Positions 23,275-28,965 of a stretch of DNA of 64,000 bases are shown in pieces. The stretch lies in assembly GCA_031082155.1 (NCBI GenBank), contig JAVHLL010000008.1, positions 1 through 64,000 on the forward strand, in the 5' to 3' direction. The stretch's first letter is position 1. Each line of letters opens with the position of its first letter. A program made the translations under genes and the position numbers. Origin of the DNA: Thermodesulfovibrionales bacterium. GTDB taxonomy: Bacteria; Nitrospirota; Thermodesulfovibrionia; Thermodesulfovibrionales; SM23-35. The notes beneath the pieces are model-generated. The model was not told the origin of the DNA, did no database searches, and worked only from the letters and a program-made list of their open reading frames with translations.

Positions 23275-24714
23275 CTAAAGCGGGCAGGATTCAGAAACAA
23301 CCCACTGTGTGCCTTCGTTCAGAGAAACTACATGCACTGCGCATGAGAGGCAGGGATCGAAGGAATGAATTACCCGCATCACCTCAACGGGTTCATTGAC
23401 ATTTTCGACCGGAGTTCCGATAAGGGCCTGCTCTATCGGACCTAACATCCCGGTTTTATCGCGCGGAGACGCATTCCAGCATGTAGGGGTAATAATCTGA
23501 TAGCGGGAAAGTTTGCCGCCGTTGATTTCCACCCAATGCCCTAATGCACCTCTCGGAGCCTCGGTAAGACCGGTGGCCTCTGCGACAGGAGGAATAGAGA
23601 ACTGATTGAAGACCGGCTTGCCGACCACTATCTGGTTCACCCAGGTCTGCATTGCCGTTGCAACTTTCTTCGTTTCATAGGCCCTCGCCCTGTGCCTGTC
23701 GAGCGCAGATATGCCACGTCGGTAGTCGCCGTTTACCCACATCCTGGCGAGAGGGCCGACCTCAACTGCATTCCCCAGGTATCTCGGCGCCTTCAACCAG
23801 GAATATGCACCGGTCTTGGGATACTGGGCCGTGGTTACACCAGCATCAGGATTAAGACCGTCCGTACCGTCGGCATACCATGAATATTTCACATGTTCGC
23901 TTATATAGCTCACATCCACAGGCTGAATGGATGGAGAGCCATTCATTGCCATGCCTCTTTTCAGAAGCCTGGTTTTTCCTGCAGCATCGAGATCAAATAC
24001 ACCATACGCAAGCAGGTTCTTCGGTCCTGTTCCAATCTGATAGTAGTCGCTGTAGAGTGCGGCTATCTTCTCAATATCAGGTAGATACACAGTGTTGATG
24101 AAGTTGATAATCTCGCTGAGATATGTCTTGAATTTGCTGATTTGCGCAGATGAGGGAACTTCTGTGAAGCCTCCGGGAAGATAGGTAGGCGGATGGGGCA
24201 TGCGGCCGCCGAAGATGGCGCCCATTTCATGAGCCTTTCTTCTGATGTCCAGAGCCTTCAGATAATTGTTCACAAGCGTTGTGGTAGCGCCTGCATCGAA
24301 CCTCCTGTCCGTTGCCCAGCTGGGCTGCCAGGGCGGCATGTTCGGCCCCTTCACAAAGTCGGGAAGTGTAAGGTGATAGAAGTGAAGTACGTGAGACTGG
24401 ATATAGTTGGATCCGAGCACCAGGTTTCTCATAATTCTGGCGTTGTCCGGCACCCCGACCCCGAATGCCTTGTCAAGGGCCATAACCGCAGCCAGGCTGT
24501 GTGAGACAGGACAGACTCCGCAGATTCTCTGCGTCACATGCTGCGAATCAAGCGGATGCCGCCCGACAAGGAGTTTTTCAAATCCCCGGTAGAGTGTGCC
24601 CGAAACTTTTGCGTCTATTACCTGCTGACTGCCCCCTTTGAGGTCCACAGAGACCTCGACCTTCAGGTGGCCTTCCAGTCTGGTTACAGGGTCTATTACA
24701 ATTTTATTCGCCAT
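23275..24714 (-). CDS. hyaB: [NiFe] hydrogenase large subunit (group 1, periplasmic)
   Basis: A 479-aa catalytic subunit. The two nickel-binding CxxC pairs are present: RICGVCPVSH (N-terminal) and DPCLSCAVH (C-terminal). After the last His is a ~16-residue tail (VVSLNEG...) expected to be removed by a maturation endopeptidase. The start ATG follows AAGGAGG. It is the second gene of a small-large pair with a 14-bp gap. No cytochrome b subunit or hyp/maturation genes are next to it, so these must be elsewhere. It oxidises H2 or links to a periplasmic cytochrome c pool. Confidence 0.95.
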   Translation of the reverse strand: MANKIVIDPVTRLEGHLKVEVSVDLKGGSQQVIDAKVSGTLYRGFEKLLVGRHPLDSQHVTQRICGVCPVSHSLAAVMALDKAFGVGVPDNARIMRNLVLGSNYIQSHVLHFYHLTLPDFVKGPNMPPWQPSWATDRRFDAGATTTLVNNYLKALDIRRKAHEMGAIFGGRMPHPPTYLPGGFTEVPSSAQISKFKTYLSEIINFINTVYLPDIEKIAALYSDYYQIGTGPKNLLAYGVFDLDAAGKTRLLKRGMAMNGSPSIQPVDVSYISEHVKYSWYADGTDGLNPDAGVTTAQYPKTGAYSWLKAPRYLGNAVEVGPLARMWVNGDYRRGISALDRHRARAYETKKVATAMQTWVNQIVVGKPVFNQFSIPPVAEATGLTEAPRGALGHWVEINGGKLSRYQIITPTCWNASPRDKTGMLGPIEQALIGTPVENVNEPVEVMRVIHSFDPCLSCAVHVVSLNEGTQWVVSESCPL

Positions 24715-24728
24715 TGCAATCCTCCTTG

Positions 24729-25643
24729 TTAATCATCATTTTCGCTACCCGATCCTTCTCCCACCTTCATGAGCGGAGTTCTGGGGAAGTCCGGGCTTGT
24801 ACATCCGATACACGGCACATTCGCATCAATACACCAGCTGATTTTATTGTTCCATTTTACTGCAGGACAATTTGCTCTCGTCTGCGGGCCTCTGCACCCC
24901 AGCTCTTTGAGGCAGCCTCCTTCCACTCCGTAATTCTTTCTTTCATCAGTCCCTTTGCGTGGACACATATCATGCACCGATTTGCCGAAGAGAGCGGCAG
25001 GTCTGCCGCTGGAATCAAGAGAGAACGGCTTGTTCAAAAGTAGTTGAACTACAGCCCATACAAACCAATCCGGATGGGGCGGACAGCCTGCGATATTAAT
25101 CGTTGTCTTGCCAGTGACTGCCGCTACGCTCTTTACCCCTGTCTCATTGGGATATGCCGCCGGGACACCCCCGTAAGCGGAGCAGTTTCCTATACAGATG
25201 ATTTTCGATGCCTTTGAAGCGAGTCTTTTTACTGCATCCTGGAACGTAACATCCTTTCCATTGTACGTCCATGCGATACAGGCGCCTCCGCCGAATGCTG
25301 TCGGCACCCCGCCCTCAACGACAAGGATATAGCCGCCACTGACCGCAGCCTTTTCAGCGATAGCAGCAGCGTCCTGTCCCGCAGTCGCCATAAGAGAAGG
25401 ATGATAGGTAAGATTGATTTTGTTCACGAGAATATCTGCTGCTGATGTGGGAGAGGTAGTCGAAATATAGTTGAGGAATGAGACAGAACATCCTGTGCAG
25501 GAACTTCCCACCAGCCAGAGAACCTGTGGACCCGATGTGCTTGCAAGCAATTCACCCAGCTTCATCAGGTCCGTACCGGTTAGCCCGAGGGCAGCGGCTG
25601 AGATGCCGCAGTACCTCAGAAAGTCACGCCGTGATATATGCAT
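24729..25643 (-). CDS. hyaA: [NiFe] hydrogenase small subunit, Tat-exported
   Basis: About 304 aa carrying the electron-transfer Fe-S clusters. A Tat signal SRRDFLRYCGISAAALG opens the protein; WLVGSSCTGCSVSFLNY begins the proximal-cluster site, and GCLKELGCRGPQTRANC and CIDANVPCIGC supply distal and medial ligands. No C-terminal membrane anchor is seen (the protein ends SGSENDD), so the enzyme is probably soluble in the periplasm. ATG at 25643 follows AAGGAGGA, seven bases away; the track start at 25694 adds a non-conserved leader. The large subunit has no signal and would be co-exported with it. Confidence 0.94.
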   Translation of the reverse strand: MHISRRDFLRYCGISAAALGLTGTDLMKLGELLASTSGPQVLWLVGSSCTGCSVSFLNYISTTSPTSAADILVNKINLTYHPSLMATAGQDAAAIAEKAAVSGGYILVVEGGVPTAFGGGACIAWTYNGKDVTFQDAVKRLASKASKIICIGNCSAYGGVPAAYPNETGVKSVAAVTGKTTINIAGCPPHPDWFVWAVVQLLLNKPFSLDSSGRPAALFGKSVHDMCPRKGTDERKNYGVEGGCLKELGCRGPQTRANCPAVKWNNKISWCIDANVPCIGCTSPDFPRTPLMKVGEGSGSENDD

Positions 25644-25744
25644 TGTGTTCCTCCTTTTCTGCCTCACCAAAGATTGTTCGCACATGAGAGGCATTATTTA
25701 TAATTGTTTGTAATTATATTATTTATAAATTATTTATTATTTTA

Positions 25745-25980: not shown

Positions 25981-28965
25981 TCAGATCGTTACGGTCAATT
26001 CGAGCGGTTTGTATCCAAAGAGGAATTTTTTTCTTAAGACAGTGAGTTTAATTGTATCACCGCGCTGCTTGTCAGACATAAAAATCCTGACGTCCTCTAT
26101 TTCTGCGATCTTCCAGTCATCCAAAGCAACGAGGATATCTCCTTCTTCAATTCCGGCTGCTGCTGCAATACTCCTGGGAACAATCTGGTCAATCTTGAGG
26201 CCTGTTTCCGTTTTGTTGGCCATGATGCCCAGTTTCAGGGTAAGCGGGGGCTCCTGTTGTTCAGCAAAAAGGACGAAGTTGCCGGCATCCCTGTCGATGC
26301 CTGCTTCATCAGGCACAACCACCGTATACTGTTTTCCGTTGAGACGGAAAGCTCTTTTAGGTATCCCCGAACCGTATATGACATGACCTGCTCCGGCGAG
26401 GATGACCATCTGATGTCCGGGATTCTCTTCCATGAATTGAGCGATCGCATGTGCCATGGTCTCGTCCCAGAGTATCTGTGACTGATAAAAGTTTTCGAAG
26501 CTTCTGTTTCCCTGGTGTCTGTGATTTTCAAAAATTTGTTCGAGTCTTGCCCGGTATTCCCAGTCCGACATGTCCATACTCCCGGGAATCTCCTTCCACT
26601 CCGAATCACTGAGTGAATCCATCCCTGTCGCCGCCACCTTCTGGACAATTTCCGAACGGATGTTCAGCGCTTTCAGAGGAACATGCCTGGCCTTTGCATA
26701 TTCGACTATCTCCCGATAGTTGTTGTATTCATACTGCCATCGTTTGTAATACCCGGTTGCCCGCAGGAACTCCCGTTCGTTGAGCGTGCCGTCCAGGTAC
26801 TCATCAATGGACTTCTGGAAAGGCTGTTGGAACATCTCCATCCCAATCGCAAATTTCCTGCCTTTTTCATGCAGGTACTGGATGACCTCGAGTTGTACTT
26901 TATGGTCCTCGTAACTGGTATGCCGTTCTCCCAGGTAAATGATTGGGACATGAAGCAGTGAAGGCAGGATATCCTTAAGCATCTCGGCTTTTTGCGGCTG
27001 GAATACCAGAACGGACTCATCGAAACTGAACGCAATACCATTTTCCGAATCGTCTGTTTTTTTCTCCCGCGCACTCCCTTGCTCAAAATGAACAAAAGAA
27101 TATTCTCCGTAACGGTACATATCCTGAATGAAACGGTCAGAATCATCCACCGGGCCACCAGACGCCACTGCAATGACTTTGTCCGGATTGAGAGGATTTT
27201 TTTGCACAGAAAGAATTAAACCTGACTTCGGTTTCTGAACACCTCCGAAAAGACGATGGAGTACAGGGCTGTCATGCCCCAGCACAAGGAGAGACGAGGT
27301 TCTGATATCTTCATCTTTGATATCCTGATCTTCCTTTATCACGAATCCGGCCTTTGCGAGGGCATCTGCTGTTTTCCTGGAGCGCTGCCGTTCGTCCCGG
27401 GACATGACAAATATCCTTTTCTCGCTGCCGAGGAATGTAGCAATGACCGGAGGAAATTCCTCGGGAGCTATCTTCCTCATCACCTCATACTCGTCGTCAA
27501 AGCTTATCTCAACAGGAGTGCCATTCACCGGAATCTCGAAATGCTCCAGTGCTTGCTTCAGTGTCAGCACTTCGCTTTTCCCCTCGCTTTCAGTGCTTAT
27601 CCTGACCGGCAGTGTGAGCCGGTAGGGCTCCCCTTGCTGTCTGAGATCGAATGTCACTGTAGGCACACCTTTCTTCATAATCACCTTAAGATCACTTACC
27701 TCAACAGAGGGCACTCCTTTTCTCGTAATCCACTGCTGGAAAAACCATGACAAGTCATCTCCCGAAATCTGCTCGAATACTGTCCTGAAATTGTCCCATG
27801 AGAGTACCTGAAATTGCCGCTCCTGCGTAATTGTCTGTAACACCTGGGAAAAAACATCCTTTCCTGCCAATTTTTCAAGCATAGAGAAGAACATCGATCC
27901 TTTTCCATACCCTGTTACTCCGGATGCAAGATCAACGGCTCCCTGATAATCCTTCAGGGCATGTTCCCTGACCGGATCGACATAACTTGCGTAGTTGATG
28001 AGGATCTGCTTTCTGTAATTCTTGCCCTTCCCTCTTTGCTCCTCTGCTCTCTGGTCCGCAAGATACGCAGTCAGTCCATCAGCCCAATTGCCCTTTCCGG
28101 CTTCAACATAAATGCTGCCTCCAAACCATTGGCGCAGAATAACACGGCTGAAGGACGAATCCGTAAGAAAGGAGAAAGTGATCTGTTCCCTGCCGATTAC
28201 CGCAACAGTCGGCGCTGCATAGTCTGCCGGCTGAAACCCCTCGACGACAGAAATCCTTTTATAGGGATACGGAGAAAGCAGTTTCTCATATTCATCAAGA
28301 TATTTTTTTGTATATTCAATATATGACTGAGCAAGGTATGTATTTTCGGAAAAGAAATAGGCATGGATATTCACCCCTTTCCAGTTTTCTTTTTTCTCTC
28401 TGTAATGCCCTGCGATCAGGGATATCTGCTGTACGGGATAAGGGAAAATGAAAGAATATTCAGTTTCCTGTCCCTTGTTCGATACGATTACTTCTTCGGC
28501 TGAGGAGATTGCGAGAAACCCGGACGGTACTGTGGCAGAGACGCGATAGTGAGCCAGAGAGCTGATTTCAGGATACCATCGGTCTGCAAGCAATATACCG
28601 GCGGAAGACACAATATTATAGGGGATGGCATTCACGAAATTCTGTCCGGACTCTCCCTTGAAGACCGCTTCAAATTCGATCTCCAGAGTTCCTTTGCCCT
28701 CAAATGCAACTGCTCCGTTCTTTCCCTGAAACTCAACCGGCTTGCCATTCACCCTTGCCGAAAGAATTTTCAGATCACCCTGGGAAATGTCCGTCTTTGT
28801 CTGCGCCGGGAATGTTATTTTCGCAGAACCTCTCAGAAGATTGTTGCCTGTGTCGAACGACACAGCCAAATCGTACTGGGGCAACAGTTGGTCTGCTTCA
28901 GCGTACCCTGTGAGGAAAAGAGTGATGAGAAAGGCAACTACGATAAGGAGTTTTGTGATACTCAT
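25981..28965 (-). CDS. exported M1-peptidase-like (inactive) + ChaN/TIKI + PDZ protein
   Basis: A 994-aa protein with an N-terminal signal (about 1-24). Residues 25-510 resemble M1 aminopeptidase, but the zinc site HExxH is RVILR (274-278, in SRVILRQWFGG) and the distal Glu motif WLNEG is NWADG; the GxMEN motif is also lost, so this part is a pseudopeptidase. A linker domain (about 520-650) follows. Residues about 660-890 form a ChaN/TIKI (DUF399) domain with GERHTSYEDH, GMEMFQQP and GAGHVIYG; its acidic/His residues are intact. A PDZ domain (about 895-985, PRSIAAAAGIEEGDILVALDD) ends it. It is 290 bp upstream of the hydrogenase start. The overall function is unknown; an envelope heme/iron or proteolysis role is suggested by ChaN. 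Confidence 0.88.
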   Translation of the reverse strand: MSITKLLIVVAFLITLFLTGYAEADQLLPQYDLAVSFDTGNNLLRGSAKITFPAQTKTDISQGDLKILSARVNGKPVEFQGKNGAVAFEGKGTLEIEFEAVFKGESGQNFVNAIPYNIVSSAGILLADRWYPEISSLAHYRVSATVPSGFLAISSAEEVIVSNKGQETEYSFIFPYPVQQISLIAGHYREKKENWKGVNIHAYFFSENTYLAQSYIEYTKKYLDEYEKLLSPYPYKRISVVEGFQPADYAAPTVAVIGREQITFSFLTDSSFSRVILRQWFGGSIYVEAGKGNWADGLTAYLADQRAEEQRGKGKNYRKQILINYASYVDPVREHALKDYQGAVDLASGVTGYGKGSMFFSMLEKLAGKDVFSQVLQTITQERQFQVLSWDNFRTVFEQISGDDLSWFFQQWITRKGVPSVEVSDLKVIMKKGVPTVTFDLRQQGEPYRLTLPVRISTESEGKSEVLTLKQALEHFEIPVNGTPVEISFDDEYEVMRKIAPEEFPPVIATFLGSEKRIFVMSRDERQRSRKTADALAKAGFVIKEDQDIKDEDIRTSSLLVLGHDSPVLHRLFGGVQKPKSGLILSVQKNPLNPDKVIAVASGGPVDDSDRFIQDMYRYGEYSFVHFEQGSAREKKTDDSENGIAFSFDESVLVFQPQKAEMLKDILPSLLHVPIIYLGERHTSYEDHKVQLEVIQYLHEKGRKFAIGMEMFQQPFQKSIDEYLDGTLNEREFLRATGYYKRWQYEYNNYREIVEYAKARHVPLKALNIRSEIVQKVAATGMDSLSDSEWKEIPGSMDMSDWEYRARLEQIFENHRHQGNRSFENFYQSQILWDETMAHAIAQFMEENPGHQMVILAGAGHVIYGSGIPKRAFRLNGKQYTVVVPDEAGIDRDAGNFVLFAEQQEPPLTLKLGIMANKTETGLKIDQIVPRSIAAAAGIEEGDILVALDDWKIAEIEDVRIFMSDKQRGDTIKLTVLRKKFLFGYKPLELTVTI

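Follow-up and report, generated by a model that had tools for sequence, protein, structure and literature searches.

Enzymes of the TIKI and Ere type hydrolyse peptide or ester bonds. In a TIKI-fold endopeptidase the residues of a 2His/2Glu set are essential (PMC6254334), and proteins in which a ChaN domain is combined with a PDZ domain have been assigned to a class designated "Haem-binding uptake, Tiki superfamily", which is uncharacterised (PMC6411480). In the literature searched, this ChaN-PDZ class is all that was found, no description of an M1-ChaN-PDZ fusion being present, and the text of a review on metallopeptidase pseudoenzymes contains no mention of "M1 family", TAF2 or "aminopeptidase N".

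The gene analysed here lies in a window of 64,000 nucleotides (the whole stretch of DNA under study) and its product is best read as a ChaN/TIKI-type hydrolase, or else a ligand binder, of the cell envelope, provided with a PDZ domain and resting on an M1-derived scaffold. It represents a real case of pseudopeptidase inside an unstudied, widespread exported family.

Domain layout and predicted fold

The open reading frame at 25981-28965 was confirmed as encoding 994 amino acids; it lies on the minus strand, translation of the plus strand meeting 11 stops. The features of the gene, all on the minus strand, are the following.

25981..28965 (-): M1-ChaN-PDZ gene, 994 aa (open reading frame, Pfam, full-length homologues in the order and 80 fetched loci)
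28894..28965 (-): N-terminal hydrophobic helix of signal type, residues 1-24 (sequence, zero Cys, modelled helix spanning 3-25)
28351..28878 (-): M1 N-terminal beta domain, residues 30-205 (AF2 model, Foldseek)
27721..28350 (-): M1 thermolysin-like catalytic domain, residues 206-415, with dead zinc site and with Tyr353 and QWFG retained (Pfam, alignment, AF2, Foldseek)
28132..28146 (-): degenerate HExxH, R274-V-I-L-R278 (80-homologue alignment; HExxH in 78)
28078..28080 (-): degenerate distal zinc Glu, D296 of NWADG (Glu in 78/80 homologues)
27496..27708 (-): beta-sandwich domain, residues 420-490 (AF2 model)
27058..27420 (-): alpha/beta linker domain, residues 516-636 (AF2 models)
26353..26952 (-): ChaN/TIKI domain, residues 672-871 (PF04187, E 2e-63; 2g5g by profile and fold)
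26920..26931 (-): GERH motif, contributing two of the four 2His/2Glu residues, E680 and H682 (E and H invariant, 80/80)
26836..26838 (-): E710 of GMEMFQ, 2His/2Glu set (invariant, 80/80)
26383..26385 (-): H861 of GAGH, 2His/2Glu set (invariant, 80/80)
26026..26232 (-): PDZ domain, residues 912-980 (PF13180, E 1.5e-8; DegQ/DegP PDZ fold matches)

Since a hydrophobic helix opens the protein and there is no cysteine among its 994 residues, the product is most likely exported to the periplasm and not a lipoprotein. The ChaN/Cofac_haem_bdg profile PF04187 scores 214.7 bits (curated cut-off 27.7) and the PDZ profile PF13180 35.2 bits (cut-off 27); the Peptidase_M1 match, covering residues 280-412 with an E-value of 2.8e-6, reaches 27.6 bits, slightly below its cut-off of 27.7. 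The linker domain (27058-27420) is conserved across the M1-ChaN-PDZ family, despite the fact that the Pfam search of the window protein returned no match for residues 516-636.

An AF2 model of the full protein, built with 61 homologues, has a mean pLDDT of 87.5 and a pTM of 0.79. When it was compared with the PDB by Foldseek, the best 50 matches listed were M1 enzymes throughout (top E 4e-27), and both the N-terminal beta domain and the thermolysin-like catalytic domain of the M1 fold are recognised; the M1-like character attributed earlier to the N-terminal part is thus borne out by the structure prediction that had been proposed as a check.

Loss of the M1 zinc site

The zinc site was examined in an alignment with 80 homologous loci, fetched from genome contigs and having the same three domains. 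At the positions where the homologues read HEI(L/A/T)H ... E, the window protein carries the substitutions H274R, E275V, H278R and E296D; a destroyed zinc site (RVILR for HExxH, D296) within a domain that keeps its QWFG fold signature, as the preliminary description had it, is therefore confirmed. The catalytic-type Tyr353 is likewise retained, as in 79 of the 80 homologues. An alternative HExxH was sought over the full sequence and none occurs, and a sequencing error or frameshift is rejected because a sister locus (L023), 87% identical, has the identical substitutions and an open reading frame.

On the other hand, the HExxH ... E signature of active M1 peptidases, lacking in the window protein, is intact at the same position in 78 of the 80 loci, the exceptions being the sister and locus L033; among the intact loci the distal Glu follows HExxH after 17 residues in 77 cases and after 16 in one, as compared with 18 in classical M1 enzymes. 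The idea that loss of HExxH characterises the three-domain architecture is contradicted by these homologues: the phylogenetic profile indicates that the architecture is widespread and that the loss is not conserved with it. Indeed, three-domain proteins are widespread in Thermodesulfovibrionia/Nitrospirota, and members are found also under record titles naming Deltaproteobacteria, Desulfobacteraceae, Schekmanbacteria and Proteobacteria; of the 177 genomes of the order, 136 give a match of some kind and, by row count, about 78 one that is essentially full-length.

The GxMEN exopeptidase motif, noted earlier as gone, is in fact absent from the window protein, though not through a loss of its own: the corresponding stretch reads G-Y-S-M-P-T or similar, with Pro replacing Glu in all 80 loci. 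Because this absence extends throughout the family, members with an intact zinc site are probably not standard M1 aminopeptidases either.

Among the loci examined, loss of the M1 site is restricted to the bacterial family of the window, where it takes different forms: R-A-F-L-R with G296 in the orthologue of genome G003, R-Q-I-V-S with D296 in that of G006 and P-A-V-L-R with G296 in L033 (genome G010). In the orthologues of G004 and G008 (L111:6297-8486 and L112:5846-8206) most of the M1 part is deleted or unrecognisable, ChaN and PDZ being intact. That the degenerate genes are true orthologues can be deduced from the gene order leuB - M1-ChaN-PDZ gene - nth - hisC - pap2/dgk - fumA - fumB (names that, like hydS/hydL below, we assign from the translated sequences), which recurs around members with destroyed and with intact sites.

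A gene tree was computed on an alignment restricted to the linker, ChaN and PDZ, the M1 columns being left out so that the trait could not shape the tree. Site loss requires three changes on the careful tree and four on a larger, quick one, the exact number being uncertain because some of the inner branches around the window are weakly supported. In AU tests, the grouping of the five degenerate rows as one clade was rejected (p 0.0018), as was that of the degenerate and truncated rows together (p 1.6e-8), and a single ancestral loss is accordingly rejected. These tests, the lineage-specific residues at the zinc site and the two relatives with an eroded M1 part lead to the conclusion that the site has been destroyed in parallel in several lineages of the window's bacterial family.

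When the window gene is compared with its sister (87% identity), dN/dS amounts to 0.23 for the entire gene, 0.34 for the M1 core (bootstrap 0.23-0.57) and 0.16 for ChaN (0.09-0.27), the latter two intervals overlapping slightly. Identity to intact relatives is 46-50% in the M1 core of the degenerate forms vs. 60-66% among the intact forms themselves, the corresponding values for ChaN being 56-67% and 65-68%. Judging from these figures, the M1 part has diverged further than ChaN and is under looser constraint than before, and yet still constrained.

The greater divergence of the M1 core in the degenerate lineages, the near-deletion of M1 in two relatives (G004, G008) and the existence of linker-ChaN-PDZ proteins entirely devoid of it (L115-L118) are what would be expected if the domain were merely decaying, relaxed selection leading it toward deletion with no scaffold role in between. 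Such an outcome is possible, if on the unlikely side, in view of the reading frame remaining open in two species that share the loss, of an M1-core dN/dS well below 1 and of the intact predicted fold. The M1 part of the window protein is probably either a scaffold or a domain in slow decay, the data being compatible with both. As for the "binding platform" that the peptidase part had been supposed to have become, it survives as a putative, lineage-specific fate of the M1 part and not as a property of the architecture.

Immediately downstream of the window gene and on the same strand lie the NiFe hydrogenase genes hydS/hydL (23275-25694, minus strand), whose small subunit has a Tat-type RRDFLRY signal. 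This adjacency had been thought potentially meaningful, and with it a partnership between the M1 part, as binding platform, and the periplasmic hydrogenase could be envisaged. However, only in the window do these genes stand between the M1-ChaN-PDZ gene and nth; they are absent from the locus in the sister, where a gap of about 45 bases occupies their position, and in every other syntenic relative. Furthermore, the closest large-subunit homologue within the bacterial family is 51% identical and, in the family search, the sister genome yielded only more distant ones. The pair is most simply explained as a recent insertion, and on both gene order and family search the partnership is rejected as highly improbable.

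The ChaN/TIKI domain and its apparent exchange with M28

The same genome encodes a paralogue (L119:2857-6459, G000:C7) consisting of M1, linker, M28 peptidase and PDZ. It has in common with the window protein the M1/linker scaffold and the C-terminal PDZ; it differs in that an M28 peptidase takes the place of ChaN and in that the M1 zinc site is intact (HEILH...NWSEG). The site is intact also in 12 of 12 copies of this paralogue from other genomes (a few of which end at a contig edge or are without the M28/PDZ part), including every genome whose ChaN-type protein has lost it. ChaN and M28 appear to be interchangeable on one scaffold. Within the bacterial family the M28 paralogue is present in 7 of 7 genomes with a lost or eroded site vs. 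3 of 6 with an intact one, a comparison confounded by kinship; a link between redundancy and site loss is suggestive only, being a correlation within one family.

The modularity of these parts is seen also in L115-L118, of 614-651 aa, which consist of linker, ChaN and PDZ, and in L122, of 720 aa, which has M1 and no ChaN. Two stand-alone ChaN-domain genes are found elsewhere in the window's genome (L120:2217-3074, G000:C16; L121:2300-3073, G000:C55).

The 2His/2Glu residues expected of a TIKI hydrolase (E680, H682, E710 and H861) are invariant in 80/80 loci and, together with the PF04187 and PF13180 matches, they substantiate the earlier description of an intact ChaN/TIKI domain followed by a PDZ. 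For a second AF2 model, limited to residues 521-994, the top fold match is heme-bound ChaN 2g5g (E 1.3e-11, TM 0.76 of target), followed by erythromycin esterases and by the PDZ domains of DegQ/DegP; 2g5g is also the sole match of the ChaN part in a profile search of PDB sequences (E 1.7e-13). With a heme-bound protein as nearest solved relative, and a Pfam family named for heme binding, the domain might be a binder of heme or an iron cofactor like Campylobacter ChaN, in which case the protein would serve envelope heme/iron handling with M1 as a dispensable docking arm. This is a tentative alternative that we consider doubtful: the 2His/2Glu set is of hydrolase type and never varies, an M28 peptidase occupies the ChaN slot in the sister architecture, and erythromycin esterases rank next among the fold matches. 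Invariance by itself cannot tell an enzyme from a heme carrier, since 2g5g binds heme and yet seems, in the alignment, to retain the same residues; it is the invariance taken with the exchange for M28 on the same scaffold that makes it more likely that the ChaN/TIKI domain is a functional site of hydrolase and not of heme-carrier type. Polypeptide ends are the probable ligands of the PDZ domain.

The heme-binding annotation of ChaN/DUF399 derives largely from one structure, and here the domain is found in a peptidase-type scaffold with hydrolase-type residues that never vary. Its location in a slot filled by M28 in the sibling renders the question "heme carrier or enzyme?" directly testable.

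Proposed role and comparison with known systems

The preferred reading, to which we assign a probability of roughly 0.7, is that of a periplasmic multidomain protein of a conserved family in which the M1 site has been lost in parallel, the ChaN site is working and the M1 part is now a scaffold. The usual form consists of M1-type peptidase domains with an intact zinc site, an alpha/beta linker, ChaN/TIKI and PDZ; in the window lineage the M1 zinc site has been destroyed and the ChaN 2His/2Glu set and the PDZ retained. The work would be done by ChaN, whose most likely reaction is the hydrolysis of peptide or ester bonds, as in TIKI/Ere, and the PDZ may present or select polypeptide ends, while the M1 part, which is still predicted to fold and is subject to purifying selection, would act as a scaffold or a substrate-holding arm. 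A dead M1 domain may be tolerated insofar as the M1-M28-PDZ paralogue, with its intact site, does the M1 peptidase work. A more elaborate version, in which a two-enzyme protein has seen its M1 half repeatedly turned into a substrate-holding arm for the ChaN enzyme, enabled by the sibling with M28 in place of ChaN, is speculative and rather improbable. The series of intact, point-dead, eroded and absent M1 parts offers natural material for studying the origins of bacterial pseudopeptidases.

Among described proteins, the ChaN-PDZ class, e.g., Desulfovibrio vulgaris DVU_3254 (PMC6411480), has the ChaN and PDZ combination in common with the window protein, the likeness being one of domain content; the window protein adds the M1 and alpha/beta domains upstream. 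With Campylobacter jejuni ChaN (2g5g) it shares the ChaN fold and the GE(K/R)H ... E ... AGxxH residues, the Campylobacter protein differing in being a stand-alone lipoprotein about 18% identical to the window ChaN. Finally, the M1 fold over ~500 residues, the QWFG signature and the catalytic-type Tyr are shared with the M1 aminopeptidases (PepN, ERAP, tricorn factor F3); unlike these, the window protein is devoid of the zinc site, its entire family is devoid of GxMEN, and other domains replace the M1 C-terminal domain.
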